Shown here one piece after another: positions 4,912-36,062 of a DNA stretch of 64,000 bases. The stretch is from Vibrio quintilis. GTDB taxonomy: Bacteria > Pseudomonadota > Gammaproteobacteria > Enterobacterales > Vibrionaceae. Position numbers and translations under genes: made by a program. The stretch spans positions 4,053,921 through 4,117,920 of the forward strand of contig NZ_AP024897.1 in assembly GCF_024529975.1 (NCBI RefSeq), read 5' to 3'. Each line of letters begins with the position of its first letter. Within the stretch, counting starts at the first letter, position 1. The notes under the pieces were generated by a model. That model was not told the DNA's origin and ran no database searches. It worked only from the letters and a program-made list of their open reading frames with translations.

Positions 4912-6159
4912 ATGCAGTTCTCTTCGTTTGGTGAGAAATTCAACCGATACACAGGTATCACACAGCTCATGGATGATTTAAACGATGGTCTTCGTACGCC
5001 GGGCGCCATCATGCTGGGCGGAGGTAACCCGGCAGCCATTCCAGCCATGCTCGACTATTTTCATCAGGCCAATCAGTCACTACTGGACAGCGGCAAACTC
5101 GTTGCCGCCATGGCAAATTACGATGGTCCACAGGGGAACGATGCATTCATCCGCTCACTTGCAGCCTTGCTGCGCGATACATTCGGCTGGGACATCAGTG
5201 AAAAAAATATTAGTCTGACCAATGGCAGTCAGAGCGGATTTTTCTATCTGTTCAACCTGCTGACCGGTAAACAACCGGATGGTTCGCACAAAAAAGTTCT
5301 GCTGCCGCTGGCTCCCGAGTATATCGGCTATGGCGACGCAGGGATTCACGATGATATTTTTGTTTCCGGCCGCCCGGAAATTGAATATCTGGACAACCGT
5401 CTGTTCAAATATCATGTCGACTTTGAAAATCTGAAAATCGATGATTCGATTGCTGCAATCTGTGCTTCAAGGCCGACCAACCCAACCGGTAACGTCCTGA
5501 CCGATGAAGAAATCCACAAACTGGATGAACTGGCCCGCCAGCATCATATCCCGCTGATTATCGATAACGCTTACGGGTTACCATTCCCGAATATCATTTT
5601 TGAAGACGTAAAGCCATTCTGGAATGAGAACACCATTCTGTGTATGAGTCTGTCAAAGCTTGGGCTGCCGGGATTACGCTGCGGTATCGTGATTGCGAAT
5701 GAAGCTATGACAACTGCACTCAGCAATCTCAACGGGATTATCAGCCTGTCACCGGGAAGTGTTGGCCCTGTACTGGCCAATCACATGATTGAGAACAATG
5801 ATATTTTGCGTCTGAGTAGTGAAGTGATTCGTCCGTTCTATCAGCAGAAGTCGCAGCGGGCGATTGAATTACTTCAGCAGGCCATTCCGGATCCGCGTTT
5901 TCGCATTCACAAACCGGAAGGCGCAATTTTCCTCTGGCTGTGGTTCGATGAATTGCCAATCACCACCATAGAACTCTATCAACGTCTGAAAGAACGTGGC
6001 GTTCTGATTGTTCCCGGCGAATACTTCTTTATCGGACAGGAAGCAACATGGGAACATGCTCACCAATGTCTGCGCATGAACTATGTTCAGGATGATGATC
6101 AGATGCAAAAAGGTATCGCGATCATCGCTGAAGAAATCGCCAGAGCTTACGCTGAATAA
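4912..6159 (+). CDS. avtA: Valine--pyruvate transaminase
   Basis: The 415-residue product is close in length to E. coli AvtA (417) and reads as the same family throughout: FSSFGEKFNRYTGITQLMDD at the start, GGGNPAAIP, a CASRPTNPTGNVLTDEE aminotransferase segment, and SLSKLGLPGLRCGI carrying the PLP-binding lysine. AvtA moves an amino group between valine and pyruvate (alanine) in the cytoplasm. The gene occupies the avtA position known from V. cholerae, near glyS and the small heat-shock gene, but is separated from the heat-shock gene here by some 23 kb of accessory DNA. Confidence 0.95.
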   Translation: MQFSSFGEKFNRYTGITQLMDDLNDGLRTPGAIMLGGGNPAAIPAMLDYFHQANQSLLDSGKLVAAMANYDGPQGNDAFIRSLAALLRDTFGWDISEKNISLTNGSQSGFFYLFNLLTGKQPDGSHKKVLLPLAPEYIGYGDAGIHDDIFVSGRPEIEYLDNRLFKYHVDFENLKIDDSIAAICASRPTNPTGNVLTDEEIHKLDELARQHHIPLIIDNAYGLPFPNIIFEDVKPFWNENTILCMSLSKLGLPGLRCGIVIANEAMTTALSNLNGIISLSPGSVGPVLANHMIENNDILRLSSEVIRPFYQQKSQRAIELLQQAIPDPRFRIHKPEGAIFLWLWFDELPITTIELYQRLKERGVLIVPGEYFFIGQEATWEHAHQCLRMNYVQDDDQMQKGIAIIAEEIARAYAE

Positions 6160-6176
6160 CTCCCCTGAAACCACCA

Positions 6177-6207
6177 GATGCACATGATGTTCAATAGCAT
6201 GTGCATC
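6177..6207 (+). terminator. Hairpin downstream of avtA
   Basis: GATGCACATG (6177-6186) and CATGTGCATC (6198-6207) form a perfect 10-bp stem 17 bases after the avtA stop. No T tract follows, so it may be a weak terminator or an mRNA 3'-end stabiliser. Confidence 0.45.
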
Positions 6208-6437
6208 GTCCTCCTCACCAACCACTCTGGTTAAATCTGCACCACAATTGTTCTGTTCTGCACCACAGTGAAACTTCCACACCCACACTAAAAACAATAA
6301 AATCAATATAACCAATTGAAATAATTTAATTTTATAAAGATGGCATACCACTTGCTGTCTGAGAGTGTTAGTTGCGAAGAGCATAATCCAGTTTTTATTG
6401 CTAACGACAAAAAGTTACTAACGACAATTTGTCAAAA
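6208..6437. other. Non-coding spacer before the guanidine riboswitch
   Basis: The 450-base gap 6160-6609 has no credible gene. This part is AT-rich and should hold the operon promoter, but I see no pair of -35/-10 boxes with good spacing. It contains a 10-base direct repeat CTAACGACAA at 6401-6410 and 6418-6427 (period 17), just upstream of the riboswitch, which could be a binding site for a regulator. Confidence 0.4.
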
Positions 6438-6545
6438 CAGACATCTAGGGTTCCGGCTACCACACATCATCATGGCAGTGACTGGTCCGAGAGTTGTCAA
6501 CCTCAACTGAGGTCACACGGCGGGATAAAAGCCCGGGAGGCCAGC
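6438..6545 (+). promoter_or_regulatory. Guanidine-I (ykkC class) riboswitch
   Basis: The leader contains the conserved blocks of the ykkC/guanidine-I aptamer in order: CTAGGGTTCCGG at 6445-6456, ACTGGTCCGAGAG at 6481-6493, a small hairpin ACCTC-AACT-GAGGT, then ACACGGCGGGATAAAAGC and CCCGGGAG up to about 6539. This class binds guanidinium and turns genes on. It lies 65-70 bases before the first gene of a guanidine-degradation operon, exactly where expected. No terminator with a T tract is visible between aptamer and gene, so control may act on translation or through Rho. The end points are approximate; the class assignment is firm. Confidence 0.92.
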
Positions 6546-6609
6546 CAATCATAATTGGTTATGTCTCTTGTGCAATGATTCAAACGTGACTCACAGTGGA
6601 GGTGATCCC

Positions 6610-7695
6610 ATGCAACATTTTCTGAAACGACTTCTGACAACGCTGATGTTATCCGCAGGTTTAATCGCTGCCTTTTCAATATCAGCCACCGCATTTGCCA
6701 AAGAGAAAAAAGACTTTACCCTGGCCTGGTCAATCTACGTTGGGTGGATGCCCTGGGATTATGCAGATCAATCCGGCATTCTGAAAAAATGGGCCAACAA
6801 ATACGGCATCAACATCGATGTGATTCAGGTCAATGACTACGTCGAGTCTATTAACCAATACACAGCCGGTCAGTTTGATGCCACGGTCATGACCAATATG
6901 GATGCACTGACCATTCCGGCAGCAAGCGGTGTTGATTCTACGGCTCTGATTGTTGGGGATTTCTCTGATGGGAATGACGGCATTATCCTGAAAGGAAACA
7001 ATAAGTCCATCCGCGATATCAAAGGCCAGAACGTCAATCTGGTTGAACTGAGTGTGTCTCACTACCTGATGGCCCGCGGACTGGAAAGTGTCGGACTGGC
7101 AGAAAAAGATGTGCACGTCATTAACACATCCGATGCCGATATTGTTGCAGCCTACCAAACACCGGATGTTACTTCAGTTGTCACCTGGAACCCGCTACTC
7201 AGCGAAATTACTTCCCAGCCGGGCAGCACGCTGGTTTTTGATTCCTCAAAAATTCCCGGAGAAATCATTGATTCGCTGGTGGTCAATACACAAATCCTCA
7301 AACAAAACCCCAATTTTGCGAAAGCCTTAACCGGCGCATGGTACGAAGTCATGTCTGAAATGACATCGAAAAACACCGCTAAATCCGATGAAGCTAAAAC
7401 CTTTATGGCGAAAGCTTCCGGAACCGATTTAGCTGGTTACAACGCCCAGCTGAAAGCCACCCGGATGTTTTACAAGCCTGCAGAAGCCGTCCGGTTTACC
7501 CAAAGTTCAGCCCTGACAGATACGATGAAGAAAGTTGCGGAATTCTCTTTTGAGCATGGTTTGTTAGGGGAAGGCGCACCCGATGCTACCTTCATCGGTA
7601 TTGAAACGCCAGCCGGCATCTATGGCAGCAAATCCAATATTAAACTGCGGTTTGATCCGGCTTATATGGAAATGGCGGCCAAAGGTCAGCTGTAA
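6610..7695 (+). CDS. Guanidine/urea-carboxylase-linked ABC transporter, substrate-binding protein
   Basis: The protein has 361 residues with a signal peptide (MQHFLKRLLTTLMLSAGLIA to about ATAFA). The mature part starts KDFTLAWSIYVGWMPWDYA and resembles NMT1/ThiY-like binding proteins of the type found beside urea carboxylase genes (TIGR03427 group). It should capture the substrate, inferred to be guanidine, in the periplasm. The frame is open from 6568, but ATG 6610 follows GGAGGTGA at 6598-6605 and starts the signal peptide. It is the first gene after the guanidine-I riboswitch and heads a seven-gene operon with short gaps. Confidence 0.88.
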   Translation: MQHFLKRLLTTLMLSAGLIAAFSISATAFAKEKKDFTLAWSIYVGWMPWDYADQSGILKKWANKYGINIDVIQVNDYVESINQYTAGQFDATVMTNMDALTIPAASGVDSTALIVGDFSDGNDGIILKGNNKSIRDIKGQNVNLVELSVSHYLMARGLESVGLAEKDVHVINTSDADIVAAYQTPDVTSVVTWNPLLSEITSQPGSTLVFDSSKIPGEIIDSLVVNTQILKQNPNFAKALTGAWYEVMSEMTSKNTAKSDEAKTFMAKASGTDLAGYNAQLKATRMFYKPAEAVRFTQSSALTDTMKKVAEFSFEHGLLGEGAPDATFIGIETPAGIYGSKSNIKLRFDPAYMEMAAKGQL

Positions 7696-7740
7696 AGCAA
7701 ACTTGAGTCTCACCATCATTCAGACCAAAACGGAGACAGC

Positions 7741-8562
7741 ATGACCCGACTGATCAACAAAAAACCATCACGTCCCACCCGACTGATGCTGGGCATCCTG
7801 CCGTTTGCTATTGCTCTGCTGGTTTATCTGGTAGCCTCTGATGCGCGTCTGGCAGCCAATCCCTCAGATAAGTTACTACCGGCATTCTCCAGTTTTGCCG
7901 ATGCCGTGGAGCGGATGGCCTTCACACCCAGCAGGCGTACCGGAGAATACCTGCTGTGGGCCGATACCCTTGCCAGCCTGCAACGTCTGACAATCGGGGT
8001 TGGCTTCAGTGCGCTGATTGGCCTGTGTCTCGGGATTGCCAACGGCATGGTGCCACTGGTGCGCTCATCACTATCGCCGTTTGTCACCGCGATATCCCTG
8101 ATTCCGCCAATGGCTATCCTGCCGGTGTTGTTTATCTCGCTCGGGCTGGGCGAAGTCTCCAAAGTTGCGCTGATATTTATCGGCATCTGCCCGATGATCA
8201 TCCGCGACATGCAGCTTAAAACGCAGTCTTTACCACAAGAGCAGCTGATCAAAGCCCAGACACTGGGCGGTAACAGCTGGCAAATCATTATCCGGATCAT
8301 CACACCGCAAGTTTTTCCGCATCTGGTTGACGCAGTCCGGCTGACACTGGGTAGCGCATGGCTGTTCCTGATTGCCGCAGAAGCGATTGTCGCCACAGAA
8401 GGGCTCGGATACCGGATTTTCCTTGTCCGACGCTACCTGTCGATGGATGTGATTCTGCCTTATGTCCTGTGGATCACCTTACTGGCTTACCTGATGGACT
8501 GGCTGCTCAGGCAGTTATCGCGCAAGGTCAGTCCGTGGTATCACGAGTCACAGGGGGCATAA
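7741..8562 (+). CDS. Guanidine/urea-carboxylase-linked ABC transporter, permease
   Basis: The 273-residue membrane protein has about six hydrophobic segments and a BPD-permease region with an EAA-type loop (LIKAQTLGGNSWQIIIRIITP). The family is the nitrate/sulfonate/taurine-type permease (SsuC/TauC-like), as in other urea-carboxylase operons. It begins 45 bases after the binding-protein gene, with CGGAGAC before the ATG, and ends just before the ATPase gene. It would form the membrane channel of the importer. The substrate guanidine is inferred from the riboswitch and downstream enzymes. Confidence 0.87.
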   Translation: MTRLINKKPSRPTRLMLGILPFAIALLVYLVASDARLAANPSDKLLPAFSSFADAVERMAFTPSRRTGEYLLWADTLASLQRLTIGVGFSALIGLCLGIANGMVPLVRSSLSPFVTAISLIPPMAILPVLFISLGLGEVSKVALIFIGICPMIIRDMQLKTQSLPQEQLIKAQTLGGNSWQIIIRIITPQVFPHLVDAVRLTLGSAWLFLIAAEAIVATEGLGYRIFLVRRYLSMDVILPYVLWITLLAYLMDWLLRQLSRKVSPWYHESQGA

Positions 8563-8563
8563 G

Positions 8564-9397
8564 ATGAACACGCAACAGCCTAAACAGCCGATGATAGAAA
8601 TCCGCAATGTCTGGAAAGAATACGGCCATAACATTGTGCTTGAACGACTGCATAAAAAAGTTCACCAGGGTGAATTTATCAGTATTGTCGGCGCATCCGG
8701 CTGCGGTAAAACCACGTTTCTGAACATGTTGCTTGGCACAGAACAACACAGCCGCGGAGAGATTCTGCTCGACGGCCAGCCACTAAGGCGGGAACCGGGC
8801 ACAGAACGGGGCATTGTGTTCCAGAAATATTCCGTCTTCCCTCACCTGACTGCTTTGGACAACGTCATGATTGGGCTGGAGTTTGAAAGCAGCGGACTCA
8901 CCAGCAAACTGTTCGGCCGGAATAATGGCGTACAGAAACAGCAGGCCCGACAACACGCACGGGAAATGCTGGCACAGGTTGGTCTGAGCCATGCAGAAAA
9001 CCAGTATCCGCACCAGCTTTCCGGCGGCATGCGCCAGCGCCTTTCAATTGCACAGTCACTGGTGAAACAGCCCCGGATTCTGCTGCTGGATGAACCCTTT
9101 GGCGCACTGGATCCGGGGATTCGTAAAGACATGCATACCTTAATCCGCAGCCTGTGGCAGGAGCAGCAACTCACGGTTTTTATGATTACCCATGACCTGA
9201 GCGAGGGTTTTCAGCTTGGCAGCCGGATCTGGGTGTTTGACCAGCCAAGAGTCGACCCACAGGCACCGGAGCGCTATGGCGCACAAATTACCTTCGATAT
9301 TCCGCTGAACAAACAAACTATCAATCAACCCGGCTTACTCAGCGCTCTGAACCAAACATTACAACCGGCAGAGCCGCTGCAATCCGGCTCTGTCTGA
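8564..9397 (+). CDS. Guanidine/urea-carboxylase-linked ABC transporter, ATP-binding protein
   Basis: The 277-residue ATPase shows Walker A GASGCGKTTF, the Q-loop region GIVFQKYSVFPHLTALDNV, the signature LSGGMRQRLSIAQSL, Walker B ILLLDEPFGALDP and a switch histidine in MITHDLSEG. It belongs with SsuB/TauB-type importers. The ATG lies one base after the permease stop, with AGGGGG upstream, so the two are translationally coupled. It powers uptake by the preceding binding protein and permease. Confidence 0.9.
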   Translation: MNTQQPKQPMIEIRNVWKEYGHNIVLERLHKKVHQGEFISIVGASGCGKTTFLNMLLGTEQHSRGEILLDGQPLRREPGTERGIVFQKYSVFPHLTALDNVMIGLEFESSGLTSKLFGRNNGVQKQQARQHAREMLAQVGLSHAENQYPHQLSGGMRQRLSIAQSLVKQPRILLLDEPFGALDPGIRKDMHTLIRSLWQEQQLTVFMITHDLSEGFQLGSRIWVFDQPRVDPQAPERYGAQITFDIPLNKQTINQPGLLSALNQTLQPAEPLQSGSV

Positions 9398-9407
9398 GGA
9401 ACACATT

Positions 9408-10172
9408 ATGCCAACATCACAACAACCGATTTTTACAGAATTACTGCCCGGCGCAGCACACTGGTCAATGAAAATCCCTAAAGGTTTTGTCCTGACCGCC
9501 AGAGATTTGGAAGGCGGCGCTAATCTCAGCCTGCTGTTTTACAATCCGGACAATTTACTGGAACGCTATAACGCACCGGATACCCTGAAATGCCAGCATA
9601 CCTTTAAGCTCACCGCAGGCCATTGCCTGTACTCTGATATGGGCCGGGTGTTCTGCACCATTCTCCGGGATGATACCGGCTGGATTGATACCGTGTGCGG
9701 CGTTGCGAATAAAGAGAAAGTGTCAGAAAAATGGGGAGATCGCAGCTATCAGGCAGACCGGAATCAATGGAGACAGAATGGCTATGATTCCCTGCTGGTT
9801 GAAGTTGCTAAATACGGACTGGGTAAACGCGATCTGGCTGCGAACCTCAACCTGTTCAGCAAAGTCAGCACGGATGCTGAAGGCAACCTGAGTTTTGCTG
9901 CCAGCCACAGTCACCCCGGCCACGAAATTGCCCTGCGCTTTGAAATGGACACGTTAGTCGTCCTGACCACCTGCCCGCATCCGTTAAATCCGGCGACGGA
10001 GTATCCGTTTAAACCCGTTGAGCTGACCCTGACCGAAGCGACAAAAATCACGCCGCCTCTCCCGCTACACGGACAGGCTGAAAACCAGCGCGGACTGGAA
10101 AACAACCGACGTTATCACTGCGCCCATACTCACTCCTTTCACTCTCACTCAGCGCCGGAGGTACAGGCATGA
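9408..10172 (+). CDS. Carboxyguanidine deiminase subunit (urea carboxylase-associated protein 2 type, DUF1989)
   Basis: The 254-residue protein belongs to the DUF1989/UAAP family: [35 protein letters not shown] and [10 protein letters not shown] in the first half, [16 protein letters not shown] and [11 protein letters not shown] in the second. It pairs with the next gene, a shorter homologue with the same plan. In guanidine-degrading bacteria the two form carboxyguanidine deiminase (CgdAB), which converts carboxyguanidine to allophanate and ammonia. Which of the two is CgdA and which CgdB is not decided here. Its C-terminus is rich in His ([12 protein letters not shown]), perhaps a metal-binding tail. 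It overlaps the next gene by 4 bases. Confidence 0.88.
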
Positions 10173-10810
10173 TTACCGAAAGCAAACTTCACCCTGAAAC
10201 CGCCATCCGCCGTGATGTCATCCCGGCCGGTGATTACTATATGCAGGTGATTCAAAAAGGGCAAACCTTCCGTATTCTTGATATGGAAGGGAATCAGGCT
10301 GCTGATACTCTGTTCTATAACGCCAGTCATCCGGCGGAGCGCTACAGCGCCATCGATACCATTCGTGAGCAGGGCAATGTTTACCTGACCACTGGTACAA
10401 AGATTCTGTCTGATCAGGGCAATGTGATGCTGGAAATTGTCGCCGATACCTGCGGCCGCCATGACACGTTAGGCGGCGCCTGTGCTACCGAAAGTAATAC
10501 GGTCCGGTATGCGCTGGAGAAAAAGACCATGCACGCCTGCCGGGACAGCTGGTTGCTGGCCGTCACTGAGCATGAAGAGTTTGGCCTGACCAAGCGGGAT
10601 ATCACTCATAACATCAATTTCTTTATGAATGTACCGGTTACTGAAAGCGGTGGCCTGACGTTTGAAGATGGCATCAGCGCACCAGGAAAATACGTCGAAA
10701 TGAAAGCTGAAATGGATGTGATTGTCCTGATCTCTAACTGCCCGCAGCTGAATAATCCCTGTAATGCATATAACCCGACACCAGTCGAAGTGCTGGTTTG
10801 GGATGAATAA
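10169..10810 (+). CDS. Carboxyguanidine deiminase subunit (urea carboxylase-associated protein 1 type, DUF1989)
   Basis: The 213-residue product is a paralogue of the preceding one, with matching segments: [68 protein letters not shown] and [19 protein letters not shown]. Conserved cysteines in GGAC and SNCPQ suggest metal binding or catalysis. Together with the upstream subunit it is expected to remove ammonia from carboxyguanidine, giving allophanate. The ATG overlaps the TGA of the upstream gene (ATGA), so subunits are made in equal amounts. It is followed by a 76-88-base spacer holding a second riboswitch, rather than directly by the carboxylase. Confidence 0.9.
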
Positions 10811-10831
10811 TCCCCAAAACAAGAAAAATAA

Positions 10832-10882
10832 GCCGGGGACGACCCCGACCAGGCTTAGCGTCATCAACCGGGACGACCCGGA
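10832..10882 (+). promoter_or_regulatory. Guanidine-II (mini-ykkC) riboswitch in the spacer before the carboxylase gene
   Basis: Two small hairpins have the same tetraloop ACGA. The first is CGGGG-ACGA-CCCCG (10834-10847), the second CCGGG-ACGA-CCCGG (10868-10881), separated by 20 bases. Tandem GC stems with ACGR loops are the defining feature of the mini-ykkC/guanidine-II class, in which each loop binds guanidinium. The second hairpin ends just before the ribosome-binding site GGAAAG (10889-10894) of the carboxylase, the usual place for translational control by this class. The sequence match is plain; function in this operon position is inference. Confidence 0.87.
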
Positions 10883-10898
10883 ATAAATGGAAAGATCT

Positions 10899-13800
10899 AT
10901 GTTTAGTAAGGTATTGATTGCCAACCGTGGTGCGATAGCCTGCCGGGTCATCCGTACCCTGAAACAGATGAATATTGCCAGTGTTGCCATTTACAGTGAA
11001 GCAGATGCTGACAGCCTGCACGTCATTCAGGCCGATGAAGCCTTTTCTCTGGGTGAGGGTGCTGCGGCGGCAACTTATCTGGATCAGGAAAAAATCATTG
11101 CCATTGCCCGTAACTGCGGCGCACAGGCCATTCATCCCGGCTACGGTTTCTTAAGTGAAAATCCGGATTTCGTCACTTTATGCGAACAGGCAGGCATTGT
11201 TTTCCTTGGCCCGACACCTGCACAGATGAACACATTTGGCCTCAAGCACTCTGCCCGTGAAATAGCCGCACAAGCAGATGTTCCCCTGCTGCCCGGTACC
11301 GGACTGATAACGGACGATGAAACAGCATTAAAACAAGCAGAGAATATCGGCTATCCGGTGATGCTCAAAAGCACAGCCGGAGGTGGCGGCATTGGTATGC
11401 AACGTTGTGATGAGGCAGAAACACTCCACAGCGCACTGGATACCGTCAGACGCCTGAGCGCCAACAATTTCAGTCACAGTGGTATTTTCTTAGAGAAATT
11501 TATCGGGCAGGCCCGTCATATTGAGGTCCAGATATTTGGTAACGGTCAGGGCGAAGTCATCGCTCTGGGTGAGCGGGACTGTTCAGCACAGCGCCGGAAC
11601 CAGAAAGTCATCGAAGAAACCCCGGCACCCCATTTAAGTGAAGACACCCGTCAGGCATTGAGAAACACAGCCATCCGGCTGGCTCAGGCAGTCAATTACC
11701 GCAATGCAGGGACAGTCGAATTTGTGCTCGATCAGCAAACACAAGCCTTCTATTTTCTTGAAGTGAATACCCGCTTACAGGTTGAGCACGGTGTAACCGA
11801 AGAAGTCTTTGGTGTTGATTTAGTTGAATGGATGATCAGACTTGGCGCCGGTGAACTGGATTTATCCGGCTGGAAAACCAGCCCCCAACCACAGGGTCAT
11901 GCCATTCAGGTCCGTTTATATGCCGAAGATCCGAATAAGAACTTCCAACCCTGTGCCGGGTTACTCAGCCATGTTGACTGGCCCCGGATAGAAGGCTTAC
12001 GGATTGAGCACTGGATTGAAGCAGGTACAGAAGTCTCACCATTCTTTGACCCGATGCTGGCGAAAATCATCGTGCATGCCGACAACCGGGAACAGGCGCT
12101 GCTCAAAATGGAACAGGCACTGGCCGGCCTTTCTGTCTACGGCGTTGAGCACAACCGCCAATATCTGCAACAGCTGCTTCAAACCCCACAGGTTCGGGAC
12201 GGTCGGGTTCTGACACAAAGCCTCAACCAGTTCAGCTACCAGCCCAATACCATCGATGTAGTCAGCAGCGGCACGCAAACCACAATTCAGGATTATCCCG
12301 GCCGGAAAGGTTACTGGCACATTGGCGTACCACCATCCGGACCGATGGACCCGCTCAGCTTTCGGCTGGCCAATCAGATACTGAAGAACGAAAAGAACTG
12401 TGCCGGGCTGGAAATCATTGTCAGCGGCCCTGCCCTGACATTTAACATCGCGAAAAAAATAGTACTCACCGGTGCATCCATTCAGGCCAGTCTGGATGGT
12501 ATCTCTGTCCCGATGGGTAAAGTTGTCGCTGTTGAAAAAGGCCAGACTCTCAGGCTGGGTAAAATCACCGGCCCCGGTGCCCGGACTTATCTGGCCGTGG
12601 AAGGCGGCCTGCAATGTCCGGATTATCTGGGCAGTCAATCCACCTTTACTCTCGGGCAGTTCGGCGGACATGCCGGACGACCGCTACGCGCAGGTGATGT
12701 GTTACACCTGAGTACAACGTCCACCCCGGCCAGAGAAGGCCAGACCATCACTCAGCCAGCGCTCGCTGATCACTGGGATATCCACGTGATGTACGGGCCG
12801 CATGGTGCGCCTGACTTTTTCACCGACAAAGATATGGAGATGTTCTTTGATGCGCAGTGGGAAGTCCATTTCAACTCCAGCCGGACCGGCGTGCGTCTGA
12901 TCGGCCCGAAACCTGACTGGGCGAGACAGGACGGCGGTGAAGCCGGACTTCACCCTTCCAACATCCATGATAATGCTTATGCGGTTGGCACCATCGACTT
13001 TACCGGCGATATGCCGGTGATTCTCGGGCCCGATGGCCCGAGCCTCGGGGGATTTGTTTGCCCTGCCACCGTGATTAAAGCGGACTTGTGGAAAGTCGGA
13101 CAACTCAAGGCTGGAGATAAAATCCGCTTTATTCCGGTCTCACTGGCAGATGCCGAAGCGGCTGAACAAATGCAAAATGCACAAATTCAGCAAGGTCAGG
13201 TGCAAGCTTACCACTGTGATATGCCAGCAATCGGCTCTCCCATTATTGATGTCATTCCGGCAGAAGAAACCATGGAACACGTGGTCTATCGACAGTGTGG
13301 TGAAGATTTTCTGCTGGTGGAATACGGGCCGCAGACACTGGATATCCGCCTGCGTTTCCGCGTGCATGCGCTGATGCTGAAACTGGAAGCGCTACAACTG
13401 CCCGGTATTGAAGAGCTGACGCCGGGAATCCGCTCCTTACAGGTGCATTACAACAATCTGATCCTGCCCCGTGATGAATTGATGCAGACCCTGCGGGCGC
13501 AGGAAGCCACACTGCATGATATCGACAAACTGACTGTTCCGGCCCGGATCGTCCATCTGCCACTGTCATGGGACGATGAAGCAACCCGGCTGGCAATCCG
13601 CAAGTATGAAGAAGTCGTCAGAAAGGATGCCCCCTGGTGCCCGGACAATATTGAATTTATCCGCCGGATTAACGGGCTGAATTCGGTTGAGGATGTGAAA
13701 CGTATTGTGTTTGACGCCAGTTATCTGGTGATGGGACTGGGTGATGTGTATCTCGGTGCACCGGTCGCCACCCCGCTCGATCCGCGCCACCGGCTGGTCA

Positions 13801-14507
13801 CAACCAAATATAACCCGGCCCGGACATGGACACCGGAAAATGCGGTTGGTATCGGCGGCGCATACCTGTGCGTTTATGGTATGGAAGGTCCCGGCGGCTA
13901 TCAGTTTGTTGGCCGGACGCTGCAAATGTGGAACCGTTACCGGAGCACTGCCTGTTTTGAAAAGCCGTGGTTACTGCGCTTTTTTGACCAGATACGTTTC
14001 TATCCGGTGTCCGCAGAAGAACTACTTGAAATCCGCCGGCAACACCCGCGCGGACAATACCCGCTTAAAATTGAACAGACAACATTCTCTCTGTCTGACT
14101 ATCAGGCACTGATCAAACAACATGCCGTTGAAATTGAGCAGAGCAAAATCCGTCAGCAAGCCGCCTTTGAAGCAGAACGCCAGCGCTGGATTGAAAGCGG
14201 ACAAGCCAATTTTGTTGTCCCGGAAACAGAGCCTCATTCAACAGAGCACTTTGTCCCGGAAGACGGTTGTGAAGCCATTGAAAGTCATGTCACAGGTAAT
14301 ATCTGGCAGATCACCGTCAAACCGGGGCACTCTGTACAGGCCGGAGACGTTGTCGCAATACTGGAAGCCATGAAAATGGAACTTGAAGTAACCAGCCAGG
14401 TTTCCGGTGTGATTGAGACCCTCTGCCAACAAACTGGTGACTCAGTCCATGCCGGGCAAGCCATCATGACAATCCGTCCGGAGACAAAAACGCAGGGAGG
14501 CGAATAA
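10899..14507 (+). CDS. Biotin-dependent guanidine carboxylase (urea carboxylase family)
   Basis: The protein has about 1202 residues. Order of domains: biotin carboxylase (about 1-445, MFSKVLIANRGAIACRVIRT, glycine-rich ATP loop KSTAGGGGIGM, FLEVNTRLQVEHGVTE), KipA/AHS2-like part (from about 450, QTTIQDYPGRKGYWHIGVPP), KipI/AHS1-like part (from about 783) and a biotinyl domain with EAMKM, biotin lysine near residue 1159. It carboxylates the nitrogen compound using ATP and bicarbonate. Two riboswitches and the deiminase pair make guanidine, not urea, the likely substrate. ATG 10899 is chosen over ATG 10887 because GGAAAG lies 4 bases before it and MFSKVLIANRG is the usual biotin carboxylase start. 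Confidence 0.93.
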   Translation: MFSKVLIANRGAIACRVIRTLKQMNIASVAIYSEADADSLHVIQADEAFSLGEGAAAATYLDQEKIIAIARNCGAQAIHPGYGFLSENPDFVTLCEQAGIVFLGPTPAQMNTFGLKHSAREIAAQADVPLLPGTGLITDDETALKQAENIGYPVMLKSTAGGGGIGMQRCDEAETLHSALDTVRRLSANNFSHSGIFLEKFIGQARHIEVQIFGNGQGEVIALGERDCSAQRRNQKVIEETPAPHLSEDTRQALRNTAIRLAQAVNYRNAGTVEFVLDQQTQAFYFLEVNTRLQVEHGVTEEVFGVDLVEWMIRLGAGELDLSGWKTSPQPQGHAIQVRLYAEDPNKNFQPCAGLLSHVDWPRIEGLRIEHWIEAGTEVSPFFDPMLAKIIVHADNREQALLKMEQALAGLSVYGVEHNRQYLQQLLQTPQVRDGRVLTQSLNQFSYQPNTIDVVSSGTQTTIQDYPGRKGYWHIGVPPSGPMDPLSFRLANQILKNEKNCAGLEIIVSGPALTFNIAKKIVLTGASIQASLDGISVPMGKVVAVEKGQTLRLGKITGPGARTYLAVEGGLQCPDYLGSQSTFTLGQFGGHAGRPLRAGDVLHLSTTSTPAREGQTITQPALADHWDIHVMYGPHGAPDFFTDKDMEMFFDAQWEVHFNSSRTGVRLIGPKPDWARQDGGEAGLHPSNIHDNAYAVGTIDFTGDMPVILGPDGPSLGGFVCPATVIKADLWKVGQLKAGDKIRFIPVSLADAEAAEQMQNAQIQQGQVQAYHCDMPAIGSPIIDVIPAEETMEHVVYRQCGEDFLLVEYGPQTLDIRLRFRVHALMLKLEALQLPGIEELTPGIRSLQVHYNNLILPRDELMQTLRAQEATLHDIDKLTVPARIVHLPLSWDDEATRLAIRKYEEVVRKDAPWCPDNIEFIRRINGLNSVEDVKRIVFDASYLVMGLGDVYLGAPVATPLDPRHRLVTTKYNPARTWTPENAVGIGGAYLCVYGMEGPGGYQFVGRTLQMWNRYRSTACFEKPWLLRFFDQIRFYPVSAEELLEIRRQHPRGQYPLKIEQTTFSLSDYQALIKQHAVEIEQSKIRQQAAFEAERQRWIESGQANFVVPETEPHSTEHFVPEDGCEAIESHVTGNIWQITVKPGHSVQAGDVVAILEAMKMELEVTSQVSGVIETLCQQTGDSVHAGQAIMTIRPETKTQGGE

Positions 14508-14508
14508 A

Positions 14509-16281
14509 ATGACTCAACCCATCACGATCACTCAGCTGTTAGATACCTATCGCGAAGGAACACTTTCTGTAAGTGAATACTTACAGAAAAAGCTGACACA
14601 GGCACAGGCAGATACCCGTCATGTCTGGCTCAGTTGCATCACATCAACACAACTGGACCAGTATCTGGATGCTTTGTCTGCACACAATATCGATGATCTG
14701 CCACTCTATGGCGTACCTTTTGCCATCAAGGACAATATCGATCTCGCAGGTTTACCCACAACAGCAGGTTGCGATGCTTATCGCTACCATCCCGAATCCT
14801 CCGCTTTTGTGGTTGAATTATTGATTGCAGCCGGGGCTGTACCGATCGGTAAAACCAGTCTGGATCAGTTTGCCACGGGACTGGTGGGCACCCGCAGCCC
14901 GTGGGGAGCGACAAATAACAGTTTCGATCCGGAATATATCTCCGGTGGCTCCAGTGCAGGAAGTGCAGTCGCTGTCGCAACAGGACAGGTCATGTTCGCC
15001 TTAGGGACGGATACAGCAGGCTCGGGCCGGGTTCCGGCGGCATTCAATAATCTCTTTGGCCTGAAGCCAACCAAAGGTGTTTTGAGCTGTCAGGGCGTGG
15101 TGCCGGCCTGCCGGACACTGGATTGTGTGACCTTTTTTACAGCCAATGGCGATGATCTGGCACTGTTACATCAACTCACAGCTGTCAGTGATCCGCAGGA
15201 TAGTTTCTCCCGGCCATTCGCATCGCCCCGACAGCCGGTTCCTATGACATGGCAGAACCTGAAAGTCGGCGTTCCTCATCCATCACAACTGAACTTTTTT
15301 GGTCATGATGCTTATCAGGCACTCTACCAGCAAGTACTGACTCAACTGGAAAACATGGGTGCAGAACTCATACCGTTTGACCTCAGCCCATATCTGCAAG
15401 CAGCCCGGCTACTGTATGACGGACCCTGGGTTGCGGAACGTTATGCAGCAATTGAAGAGTTTTACACACAAGATCCTTCCCGCTGCCTGCCGGTGATTCA
15501 AACGATTATTGGTCAGGCAGAAAACATCACGGCAGCACAAACCTTCAAAGCCATGTATCAGTTGCAGGATTATCAGGTGATCTGCGATCGACAACTGGCA
15601 GAAGTTGACGTCGTTATCACACCGACCGCCGGCACGATTTATACGATTGAAGAAGTCAATCAAGACCCGGTCGCGCTCAACAGCAATCTTGGTTATTACA
15701 CCAACTTTATGAATTTGCTCGACTACAGCGCCATTGCCATTCCGGGCGGATTCACACCGGAAGGGCTGCCATTTGGTTTTACTCTGTTTAGCCAGGCTTT
15801 TGCGGATAAATCTCTGATCGCTCTTGCCGGTGCATGGCAAAAAACCGCTCATCTGCCAGTCGGAGCAACGGGAATTTATCCGGATTCAACCCGTCGCCTT
15901 GATTTGCTGGTTTGCGGTGCACATATGCAGGGTTTGCCGCTCAACCATCAGCTCACTGAGCTGGGAGCGACACTGAAGCAGGTGACTCAGACATCTTCCC
16001 GGTATCAGCTTTACGCACTGGCAGGCGGACCACCAGCACGACCGGGGCTGGTCCGCAACGAAGCGGAAGGCGTTTCGCTGGATGTGGAAGTCTGGTCAAT
16101 ACCCATGGACGCCGTTGGTGCTTTCCTCAGCCAAATTCCTCACCCGCTCGGACTGGGCAGCGTTGAGCTGCTATCCGGTGAGTGGGTGAAGGGGTTTATC
16201 TGTGAACCAGCCGGACTGGAGGGCGCGGAGAATATCAGCCACTTTGGCGGCTGGCGGGGGTATCTGACAAGTCTGAAATAA
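14509..16281 (+). CDS. atzF: Allophanate hydrolase
   Basis: The 590-residue enzyme has an amidase-signature domain (about 1-450) and a smaller C-terminal domain (about 460-590, LLVCGAHMQGLPLNHQL). The Ser-cisSer-Lys triad can be placed: Lys74 in FAIKDNID, Ser148 in SGGSSAGS and nucleophile Ser172 in DTAGSGR. The first domain splits allophanate to ammonia and N-carboxycarbamate; the second domain is thought to decarboxylate that product. It starts one base after the carboxylase stop, with GGGAGG upstream, and ends the operon before a strong terminator. It completes guanidine breakdown to ammonia and carbon dioxide. Confidence 0.94.
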   Translation: MTQPITITQLLDTYREGTLSVSEYLQKKLTQAQADTRHVWLSCITSTQLDQYLDALSAHNIDDLPLYGVPFAIKDNIDLAGLPTTAGCDAYRYHPESSAFVVELLIAAGAVPIGKTSLDQFATGLVGTRSPWGATNNSFDPEYISGGSSAGSAVAVATGQVMFALGTDTAGSGRVPAAFNNLFGLKPTKGVLSCQGVVPACRTLDCVTFFTANGDDLALLHQLTAVSDPQDSFSRPFASPRQPVPMTWQNLKVGVPHPSQLNFFGHDAYQALYQQVLTQLENMGAELIPFDLSPYLQAARLLYDGPWVAERYAAIEEFYTQDPSRCLPVIQTIIGQAENITAAQTFKAMYQLQDYQVICDRQLAEVDVVITPTAGTIYTIEEVNQDPVALNSNLGYYTNFMNLLDYSAIAIPGGFTPEGLPFGFTLFSQAFADKSLIALAGAWQKTAHLPVGATGIYPDSTRRLDLLVCGAHMQGLPLNHQLTELGATLKQVTQTSSRYQLYALAGGPPARPGLVRNEAEGVSLDVEVWSIPMDAVGAFLSQIPHPLGLGSVELLSGEWVKGFICEPAGLEGAENISHFGGWRGYLTSLK

Positions 16282-16340
16282 TCCGGCTTCATACAAACCG
16301 GGCACGTTCCGCCAACCCCCAAAAATGATTCCGTACGTGC

Positions 16341-16378
16341 AAAAAGCCAGCTATTAACACTGGGCAGCTGGCTTTTTT
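16341..16378 (+). terminator. Rho-independent terminator of the guanidine operon
   Basis: AAAAAGCCAGCT (16341-16352) pairs with AGCTGGCTTTTTT (16366-16378), giving a perfect 7-bp GC-containing stem plus A/T pairs and a T tract. It can also serve the convergent HigBA pair. Confidence 0.9.
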
Positions 16379-16419
16379 GTCCATACAGAAGAATCAATGA
16401 GCCTCACAGCGGTACAAAC

Positions 16420-16716
16420 TTACAGTGTTGCAAACTCAATCGCCCGAACGCGGGAAAGATTCACTTTTTTCCTGGCCCGCCATAAGTCATAGTTATCCTG
16501 CATTGCCAGCCAGCTTTCAGCACTACGTCCCAGTGCTTTGGAAAGCCGCAGTGCCATCTCAGGAGAAATTGCACTCTGTCCTTTCAGAATCCTGCTGAGT
16601 GTGGAAGATGAAACGTCCAACTGCTTTGCCACATAACGACAGCTATAACCAAATGGCTCCATGTAGATACTGAGTATAAATTCTCCGGGGTGAGGCGGAT
16701 TATGCATTTTCATCAA
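16420..16716 (-). CDS. higA: HigA-type antitoxin, XRE-family DNA-binding protein
   Basis: The 98-residue protein opens NPPHPGEFILSIYMEPFGYS, the typical HigA N-terminus (HPGE box), followed by a helix-turn-helix around VAKQLDVSSSTLSRILKGQS and the MALRLSKALGRSAESWLAMQ segment. HigA neutralises HigB by direct binding and represses the pair's promoter. It lies downstream of the toxin and overlaps it by 4 bases, the toxin-first order characteristic of higBA. Confidence 0.93.
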   Translation of the reverse strand: MMKMHNPPHPGEFILSIYMEPFGYSCRYVAKQLDVSSSTLSRILKGQSAISPEMALRLSKALGRSAESWLAMQDNYDLWRARKKVNLSRVRAIEFATL

Positions 16717-34658: not shown

Positions 34659-36062
34659 TTAAGATGACAAAGTCCGGATCAAATTTGAATAATCTTCTTT
34701 GATATCATGACTTTCTTCTCTGAGCTGTTCAATTTTTCGGCAGGCATGTAATACTGTGGTATGGTCACGTCCGCCAAACGCATCACCTATCTCAGGTAAG
34801 CTGTGGTTCGTCAGTTCTTTCGCCAGTGCCATAGCAAGCTGTCTTGGTCTGGCAACGGAACGGGAACGACGTTTAGATAAGAGATCTGCTACTTTGATTT
34901 TATAATATTCAGCGACTGTTTTCTGGATATTATCAATTGTCACCAGCTTTTCCTGCAACGCAAGCAGGTCGCGCAGGGCCTCACGGACAAAATCAATCGT
35001 GATAGGACGACCGGTAAAGTTTGCATTAGCAATCACCCGGTTTAATGCCCCTTCAAGTTCACGCACGTTAGAACGAAGTCTTTTGGCGATAAAAAAAGCC
35101 ACTTCATCCGCCAGATGAATTTGATGGTCTTCAGCCTTCTTCATCAGAATCGCCACCCGGGTTTCCAGCTCCGGAGGCTCAATCGCAACCGTCAGACCCC
35201 AGCCAAAACGGGATTTCAGCCGATCTTCTACTCCGCTGATTTCTTTCGGATATCGATCAGATGTCAGAATAATTTGCTGATTGCCTTCCAGCAGGGCATT
35301 AAAGGTGTGGAAAAATTCTTCCTGAGAACGCTCTTTATTAGCAAAGAACTGAATATCATCGATCAGCAGCGCATCAACACTGCGGTAATAACGTTTGAAC
35401 TCTTCAATCGCATTATTCTGCAGGGCTTTTACCATATCCTGAACAAAACGCTCAGAATGCATATAAACCACTTTCGCATTACGGTTATGGTCGATGATCG
35501 CATTTCCTACCGCATGCAACAGGTGTGTTTTACCTAAACCTGTTCCGCCATACAGAAACAGCGGGTTATAAGCTGCACCGGGATTATCAGCCACCTGTTT
35601 TGCAGCTGCAAGACCAAGCTGGTTCGATTTACCTTCAACAAAGTTATTAAACTTATGCTTCGGATTGACATTAGATCGGTAATTCATTCCAACCGGGGCT
35701 GATTCATCATCCCAGGTTTTATGGACAGGTTTTCGCGCCTGAAGCTGAGCAGGCGCGGAAGATTCAGCGGCAACATCCGCAGGTGTACGGACCGCCGGTT
35801 TGATTCGTTCTGTCACAGGCTTGTTGCCCACTTCAAAACGTAAGCTCGGGATATCATTACCACAGTGCTCATTCAATAAGCGATTAATACTGTGAAGATA
35901 CCGGTCCCGCACCCAGTCGAGCACAAAACGGTTCGGAGCGTATAAAGTGAGAGTATTGTCATTCAACTCGGCTTGTAATGGCCGAACCCACATACTGAAC
36001 TCTGTCGCAGGCAGTTCTTCCTGAAGCTGTTGCATGCATTGCAACCATAGAGAAGATGACAC
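34659..36062 (-). CDS. dnaA: Chromosomal replication initiator protein DnaA
   Basis: Using GTG 36062 as start gives 467 residues, the E. coli length, beginning [20 protein letters not shown] as in V. cholerae. GAGTGAGGGA precedes it. The frame is open for 28 more codons but that part is not DnaA-like. Domain I (about 1-85), a variable linker, the AAA+ domain (Walker [14 protein letters not shown], Walker [10 protein letters not shown]) and the DnaA-box-binding domain ([35 protein letters not shown]) are all present. It opens oriC, which lies about 27 kb away at the right end of the window. Perfect and near-perfect DnaA boxes lie in its own promoter region. Confidence 0.97.

Follow-up and report, generated by a model that had tools for sequence, protein, structure and literature searches.

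Guanidine-I and guanidine-II riboswitches in a probable guanidine carboxylase operon of Vibrio quintilis

The guanidine carboxylase locus

We analyzed a 64,000-nucleotide stretch of the V. quintilis genome (hereafter the window). On its + strand lie, in order, a guanidine-I riboswitch aptamer, three genes of an ABC importer, cgdA, cgdB, a guanidine-II riboswitch, gca and an allophanate hydrolase gene. These and the associated features are as follows.

6238..6265, + strand: two putative NtrC-like half-sites TGCACCA (at 6238 and at 6259), which precede the -24/-12 motif by 82-103 bases
6341..6356, + strand: candidate sigma-54-type -24/-12 promoter motif TGGCATACCACTTGCT, a single match in 64 kb
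6434..6541, + strand: guanidine-I riboswitch aptamer (RF00442, 81.3 bits, gathering score 63)
6495..6517, + strand: P2 region of guanidine-I, complementary to 6585-6607 (predicted duplex -22.7 kcal/mol)
6610..7695, + strand: ABC transporter substrate-binding protein (TIGR03427, 550.6 bits)
7741..8562, + strand: ABC transporter permease (best family TauC, below the TauC cut-off)
8564..9397, + strand: ABC transporter ATP-binding protein (family matches below their cut-offs)
9408..10172, + strand: carboxyguanidine deiminase subunit, CgdA-like (UAAP1, DUF1989; TIGR03425, 295.8 bits; PF09347)
10169..10810, + strand: carboxyguanidine deiminase subunit, CgdB-like (UAAP2, DUF1989; TIGR03424, 340.3 bits; PF09347)
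10829..10857, + strand: outer helix on P1 of guanidine-II, UAAGC (10829-10833) with GCUUA (10853-10857), absent from the Rfam model
10831..10881, + strand: guanidine-II (mini-ykkC) riboswitch (RF01068, 38.0 bits, gathering score 32)
10889..10894, + strand: Shine-Dalgarno sequence GGAAAG of gca, read directly
10899..14507, + strand: guanidine carboxylase gca, urea carboxylase family (TIGR02712, 1841.5 bits)
14509..16281, + strand: allophanate hydrolase (TIGR02713, 749.4 bits; PF01425 and PF21986)

For the substrate-binding protein we took the ATG at 6610, picked by its Shine-Dalgarno sequence, as the start codon, where the open reading frame list has a TTG at 6568. The deiminase genes form an adjacent DUF1989 pair of the UAAP1 and UAAP2 kinds, and the assignment of the former as CgdA is based on gene order and family, not on a tree. 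When the gca product was aligned to the Kluyveromyces lactis urea amidolyase (5i8i), with positions counted by hand, Asp700 fell at K. lactis position 1330, where the latter has Asn1330, and Asp949 fell at position 1584. Aspartates at these two positions separate guanidine carboxylases from urea carboxylases according to the available part of PMC11410670, and the V. quintilis enzyme, as aligned, bears both. The nearest carboxylase locus among the best 80 listed is that of Vibrio sp. MEBiC08052 (76% identical).

The gaps between successive genes are 45, 1, 10, -4, 88 and 1 bases, and no + strand terminator-like site was found in the two stretches scanned (6160-6700 and 10600-11000). It is therefore likely that the genes from the importer to the allophanate hydrolase share one transcript, as the preliminary description of this locus had proposed along with the deiminase and carboxylase functions, which the protein families and the carboxylase aspartates support. 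Elsewhere in the window, positions 35472-35552 gave a borderline Rfam match to AsdA, an antisense RNA of dnaA mRNA (53.1 bits, cut-off 52).

Promoter motifs and the guanidine-I leader

The sequence TGGCATACCACTTGCT at 6341-6356, which we take to fit the sigma-54 -24/-12 consensus, is the only match on both strands of the 64 kb by a strict as well as by a looser pattern. For comparison, 53 guanidine-I leaders matched our script pattern (it passed over several leaders, so that L063, L066 and L103 are the only ones of the eight Vibrio relatives described below among them), and the tests were run on the non-redundant leaders available for each. The strict pattern occurred in 20 of the 53 leaders, with 0.0 expected from shuffles, and the looser one was found in 31 of the 47 leaders left after removal of redundancy, compared with a mean of 0.35 in dinucleotide shuffles and a maximum of 3 in 200. 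The two copies of TGCACCA further upstream are presumably NtrC-like half-sites by consensus; such half-sites numbered 50 in the 47 leaders against 14.5 expected and a maximum of 23 in 200 shuffles, and no full NtrC-type dyad was present in 6100-6440. These counts suggest that a conserved sigma-54-type motif with NtrC-like half-sites precedes the operon. The two papers found to combine guanidine, riboswitch and NtrC both concern c-di-GMP by title, and in a second search, with 254 matches, 'guanidine carboxylase' occurs in none of the ten papers listed.

The guanidine-I aptamer that the preliminary description had placed in the 5' leader scored well above its gathering score (81.3 versus 63 bits), is present as a whole aptamer and has no second RF00442 match beside it in the genome (5.85 Mb, E <= 0.001). 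The stretch complementary to its P2 region (6585-6607) contains the Shine-Dalgarno sequence of the first gene, GGAGGUGA (6598-6605), and the predicted duplex is the second strongest of 35 leaders. Across these leaders, P2 paired more stably with the 42 nt before its own first gene than with those of other leaders (-19.66 versus -14.94 kcal/mol when swapped; 0/5000 permutations, n=35). The result was the same with the Shine-Dalgarno stretch alone (0/5000, n=32), and a control stretch further upstream gave 882/5000 (n=27). Thus, the guanidine-I P2 of each leader covaries with its own first-gene Shine-Dalgarno region.

With P2 forced to form, the mean accessibility predicted for the Shine-Dalgarno sequence rose from 0.264 to 0.483 (n=52 leaders). 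In the test on the shortest stretch, the increase exceeded 0.1 in 37 of the 52, and a decrease of more than 0.1 was seen in only one, the window. Shuffling P2 likewise raised accessibility in 41 of 49 leaders (mean 0.28 to 0.45). In the window itself, the predicted value went from 0.26 to 0.15 with P2 forced and from 0.26 to 0.22 with P2 shuffled, that is, no switch is predicted. Since the window's predicted accessibility did not rise on either forcing or shuffling P2, we infer a guanidine-I switch in this copy from the relatives, in which covariation supports the pairing of P2 with the Shine-Dalgarno region.

RF00442 RNAs are usually transcription switches with a terminator, as stated in the available text of a 2025 J Bacteriol review (PMC12186494), whereas in the V. 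quintilis leader nothing terminator-like was found in 6160-6700 and P2 is complementary to the Shine-Dalgarno region. A terminator is the usual platform of this class and not a rule of membership. Some related leaders carry a U-rich stretch after the alternative stem that would fit a terminator. At least six T in the eight bases after this stem were counted in 22 of the 53 leaders, compared with no more than three in the window, by a script that misses some leaders (L143 and L148 scored 0 for lack of a partner stem, yet six consecutive T are present in L143). Translational leaders of guanidine-I, or P1 stems with a bulge, may have been noted before, in the papers that first described the two classes.

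The guanidine-II element upstream of gca

The spacer between cgdB and gca had been described as containing two hairpins with ACGA loops, the second ending 7 bases before GGAAAG, and both were confirmed at these positions. The P1 inner stem (10834-10838 with 10843-10847) encloses one ACGA loop (10839-10842) and the P2 stem (10868-10872 with 10877-10881) the other (10873-10876), and the gca start codon follows at 10899. The proposed guanidine-II identity held in the covariance-model search (38.0 versus 32 bits), with an E-value of 5.1e-4 for the 64 kb against all Rfam families and 8.3e-5 for 6000-16500, and a search of the whole 5.85 Mb genome gave no other RF01068 match at E <= 0.001. The covariance score, the two ACGR-loop hairpins and the closeness to the gca ribosome-binding site all place the element in this class, whose members, including the E. 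coli sugE element, likewise carry a pair of hairpins with ACGR loops immediately ahead of a ribosome-binding site (PMC9300104). Cooperative binding of guanidinium through kissing loops is expected of the class, and this copy may bind in the same way.

To compare this element with its relatives, we assembled 78 loci, namely the window, 22 loci from a sample of the order and 55 of the 80 carboxylase loci that were named; in the other 25 named loci the 92 bases ahead of gca showed no pair of hairpins or (8 of the 25) lay outside the listing. Guanidine-II was obtained from 73 of the 78, and 72 entered the distance count, the start of L147 having been lost in the analysis. From the end of the P2 loop to the gca start the median was 23 nt, with 18-31 nt in 64 of the 72 loci and a full range of 18-120. 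Among 28 close relatives (window included), 6 of the 10 pairs of the P1 inner stem and P2 had changes on both sides, and RNAalifold recovered both stems from the MAFFT alignment. As for Vibrio relatives, eight loci are among the best 80 (L063-L066, L070, L071, L073 and L103), and in all eight the spacer comparison called for in the preliminary description revealed two ACGA hairpins immediately ahead of the start of the carboxylase gene. Guanidine-I was present in all eight of these genomes; by Rfam, the operon guanidine-II scored above the cut-off in six, at 31.4 bits in that of L103, and was not found at E <= 0.001 in that of L065. Seven Acinetobacter loci among those listed (L125, L127, L129, L132, L133, L140 and L142) lacked a guanidine-II hairpin pair over the 92 bases that precede gca, and in L091, from a Pseudomonadales MAG, guanidine-II (loop position 7451) lies about 1.5 kb before the carboxylase rather than adjoining it.

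P1 of the V. quintilis element departs from RF01068 in having a short inner stem, separated by a 3' bulge of 5 bases (10848-10852) from an outer helix. In relatives the strands of this helix read GAGC/GCUC, GGGC/GCCC, AAGGC/GCCUU, GAGUG/CACUC or GGCC/GGCC. In a close group (the window, L063-L080, L103, L110 and L143-L164; 43 rows, 38 distinct), at least four outer-helix pairs were found in 28 of the 38 distinct sequences, the other 10 being without the helix. Since MAFFT loses the register of the outer helix, which RNAalifold did not find in the alignment of 28 sequences, we used an own-versus-swapped test instead. With 0-1 bases on the 5' side and 4-7 on the 3' side, a geometry that, like the close group, was set only after inspection of the sequences, 34 non-redundant close-group sequences averaged 3.68 bp with their own partner strand and 2.39 with a swapped one (0/5000 permutations), and 23 of them had at least four pairs.

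The same fixed geometry gave 4311/5000 for other carboxylase-linked copies (n=30) and 3989/5000 for copies located away from carboxylase genes (n=17), and free geometry gave 53/5000 and 1109/5000, respectively. The latter copies came from the 30 top-scoring loci of the order sample (L003-L032), in 20 of which guanidine-II was found; 19 of the 20 do not precede a carboxylase, 18 of these 19 have an exporter-like motif by a crude pattern, and 17 non-redundant ones were tested. The covarying outer helix is thus a feature of close carboxylase-linked relatives, with no signal at this geometry in the 17 non-carboxylase copies. In sequences with the helix, 7-12 bases are left between it and P2. Crystal work indicates that the linker must track both stems, which in G. 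violaceus means that 14 nt span 49 A; a hinge at the P1 bulge, or opening of the outer helix upon ligand binding, is therefore plausible by analogy.

In published models of guanidine-II, known here from parts of the papers, the Shine-Dalgarno sequence is masked without ligand by the linker (PMC9300104) or by a competing hairpin (PMC5486947). The linker and the Shine-Dalgarno sequence of the same locus did not form a better duplex than swapped partners, either over all loci (650/5000 with the P1 3' arm included, 2010/5000 with the linker alone) or in the close group (415/5000 and 1667/5000), and the window's duplexes were among the weakest, in 53rd place of 56 and of 57. Forcing both hairpins moved the mean predicted Shine-Dalgarno accessibility from 0.522 to 0.534 (n=67), with a rise of more than 0.1 in five loci and a fall of more than 0.1 in two; in the window it moved from 0.57 to 0.58. 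These predictions, which are based on secondary-structure energies alone, do not support masking by the linker, the expected gate. By eye, masking-like pairing can be seen in some relatives (AAUCACC/GGUGAUU in L072, UUCAUC/GGUGAA in L074). We also considered a separate promoter or a + strand terminator ahead of guanidine-II and rejected both, as neither was found in 10600-11000: no sigma-70-like promoter was detected in that stretch and no sigma-54-like site in 10500-10900, and the two terminator-like sites in 10600-11000 are on the - strand, over the P1 hairpin.

The order sample shows how common the layout is. At E <= 0.001, guanidine-II was matched in 96 of its 394 genomes and guanidine-I in 39. 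In 29 of these 39 (the V. quintilis genome included) a guanidine-II follows downstream on the contig that bears guanidine-I, at a distance of 4217-6819 bases (median 4313), in two cases with a score below the Rfam cut-off. A guanidine-I aptamer followed by guanidine-II is thus common in the order sample. Among same-genus genomes with any match, only V. quintilis has guanidine-I, and five others have guanidine-II alone. In the genomes of the best 80 carboxylase loci listed, some of which are also in the order sample, 44 had guanidine-II at E <= 0.001, 37 of them above the cut-off. Of the 30 searched for both families, 29 had guanidine-I, and by hand count both elements lay no more than 9 kb apart in 25, among them 6 whose guanidine-II is below the cut-off.

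One locus of a different composition is that of Psychromonas sp. B3M02 (L077), in which two hairpins resembling guanidine-II, UUCGGG-ACGA-CCCGAA and CUGG-ACGA-CCAG, come some 140 bases after guanidine-I (2025-2121; whole stretch L077:2025-2350). This middle pair was left unscored by Rfam at E <= 1 and lies just before a 2-OG/Fe(II) dioxygenase gene, whose product may be MgdH-like, judging by its position, and is assigned by Pfam to its superfamily only. Another guanidine-II precedes gca, which brings the guanidine-RNA-like elements of this one operon to three.

Published counterparts and models of control

In V. quintilis, guanidine-I precedes the importer and cgdA/B, and guanidine-II lies between cgdB and gca, all on one strand. 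This is the published layout: according to the available part of the review, Raoultella terrigena, Klebsiella michiganensis and Erwinia rhapontici, which belong to another lineage, have the same split (PMC12186494), with guanidine-I linked to importer and deaminase genes and a downstream guanidine-II linked to the carboxylase and allophanate hydrolase genes. Vreelandella boliviensis has the same order, with a leader guanidine-I, the importer, cgdA/B, guanidine-II between cgdB and gca, gca and allophanate hydrolase (PMC12508155), and differs in also having mgdH and mgdL. Since the arrangement in Raoultella, Klebsiella, Erwinia and Vreelandella has been published, our finding is not new in layout, and the novelty implied when two classes in one operon were first noted at this locus does not stand (PMC12186494; PMC12508155). 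The sigma-54 motif and the bulged P1 helix are features of V. quintilis that are not mentioned for V. boliviensis in the accessible portion of PMC12508155.

That study (Sinn et al. 2025, PMC12508155), as far as its available text goes, subjected both V. boliviensis RNAs to in-line probing. It reported for guanidine-I an apparent KD of 44 uM for guanidine, with methylguanidine binding not seen, and for guanidine-II an apparent KD of 93 uM with guanidine and of 83 uM with methylguanidine. The authors presume terminator control by guanidine-I and Shine-Dalgarno unmasking by guanidine-II, and the same in 'several other bacteria'. The two-step control suggested in the preliminary description, with early transporter expression and a later gate on the carboxylase, would fit these two apparent KDs for guanidine and is plausible.

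Taken together, we consider it likely that two guanidine riboswitches, of classes I and II, are present in this one guanidine carboxylase operon and that the second acts on gca. The steps could be as follows. Under nitrogen shortage, a sigma-54-type promoter, probably with help from NtrC, would switch the operon on, which the motifs make somewhat probable. Without guanidine, the P2 strand of guanidine-I would pair with the Shine-Dalgarno region of the first gene and block the importer; with guanidine, the aptamer would fold, P2 would close on itself, and importer and deiminase would be made, a step to which we give an even chance. Before gca, as published work on other copies suggests, ligand binding would cause the ACGA hairpins to kiss and raise gca expression, and the bulged outer helix of P1 probably tunes this kissing complex in its geometry or affinity. 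The full reading, namely a three-input AND gate, is tentative, and we rate it at somewhat under even. It would combine a sigma-54/NtrC input, a guanidine-I whose P2 covaries with the Shine-Dalgarno region (translational, and in this copy lacking a terminator), and a guanidine-II subtype specific to carboxylases with a hinged P1 (a 3' bulge of mostly 5-6 bases and a covarying outer helix) that gates gca otherwise than by linker masking.

How guanidine-II acts is the point on which other readings differ. Instead of unmasking the Shine-Dalgarno sequence, it could act mainly on mRNA stability or on transcription past the 88-base gap, through RNase or Rho access. Masking was seen neither in the window nor in the swapped-partner test over the relatives, the gap from the end of cgdB (10810) to gca (10899) holds no operon gene, and the available part of PMC12186494 reports that guanidine-III controls stability; however, the tight spacing of P2 to the start codon (18-31 nt in 64 of 72 loci) is what would be expected of action on initiation, and we regard this reading as possible but rather unlikely. 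A lower likelihood still attaches to the idea that guanidine-II mainly broadens the range of ligands at the gca step, to methylguanidine as well as guanidine, and sets no second guanidine threshold. The V. boliviensis guanidine-II, in what is available of PMC12508155, binds the two ligands alike and its guanidine-I only guanidine, and L077 has its guanidine-II-like pair before a 2-OG dioxygenase gene within such an operon, but the V. quintilis stretch that runs from guanidine-I through the allophanate hydrolase gene contains no gene for a dioxygenase.

Two further explanations would deny the element a present role. That it is now redundant, left over from an ancestor in which gca-atzF formed a separate operon under a promoter of its own, would accord with the occurrence of guanidine-II away from carboxylases in relatives (19 of the 20 found in L003-L032) and with some carboxylase genomes having no match for one of the two classes. 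No sigma-70-like (10600-11000) or sigma-54-like site (10500-10900) stands just before guanidine-II, however, and its conserved position and the both-sided changes that keep its stems paired argue for present function, which makes a relic improbable. The element is short and scores only 6 bits over its Rfam cut-off, as two ACGA hairpins that arose by chance might; yet its E-value in the operon stretch (8.3e-5), its standing as the sole genome match at E <= 0.001, and the same placement with compensatory changes in relatives leave chance with next to no credibility, the relatives in particular refuting it.

Two unrelated RNA sensors for one ligand on one transcript would make an unusual control design. 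Its parts can be tested in this copy and in its relatives, namely the covarying pairing of guanidine-I P2 with the Shine-Dalgarno region, the hinged P1 of carboxylase-linked guanidine-II and the nitrogen-type promoter motif, the last of which would link guanidine use with nitrogen shortage.
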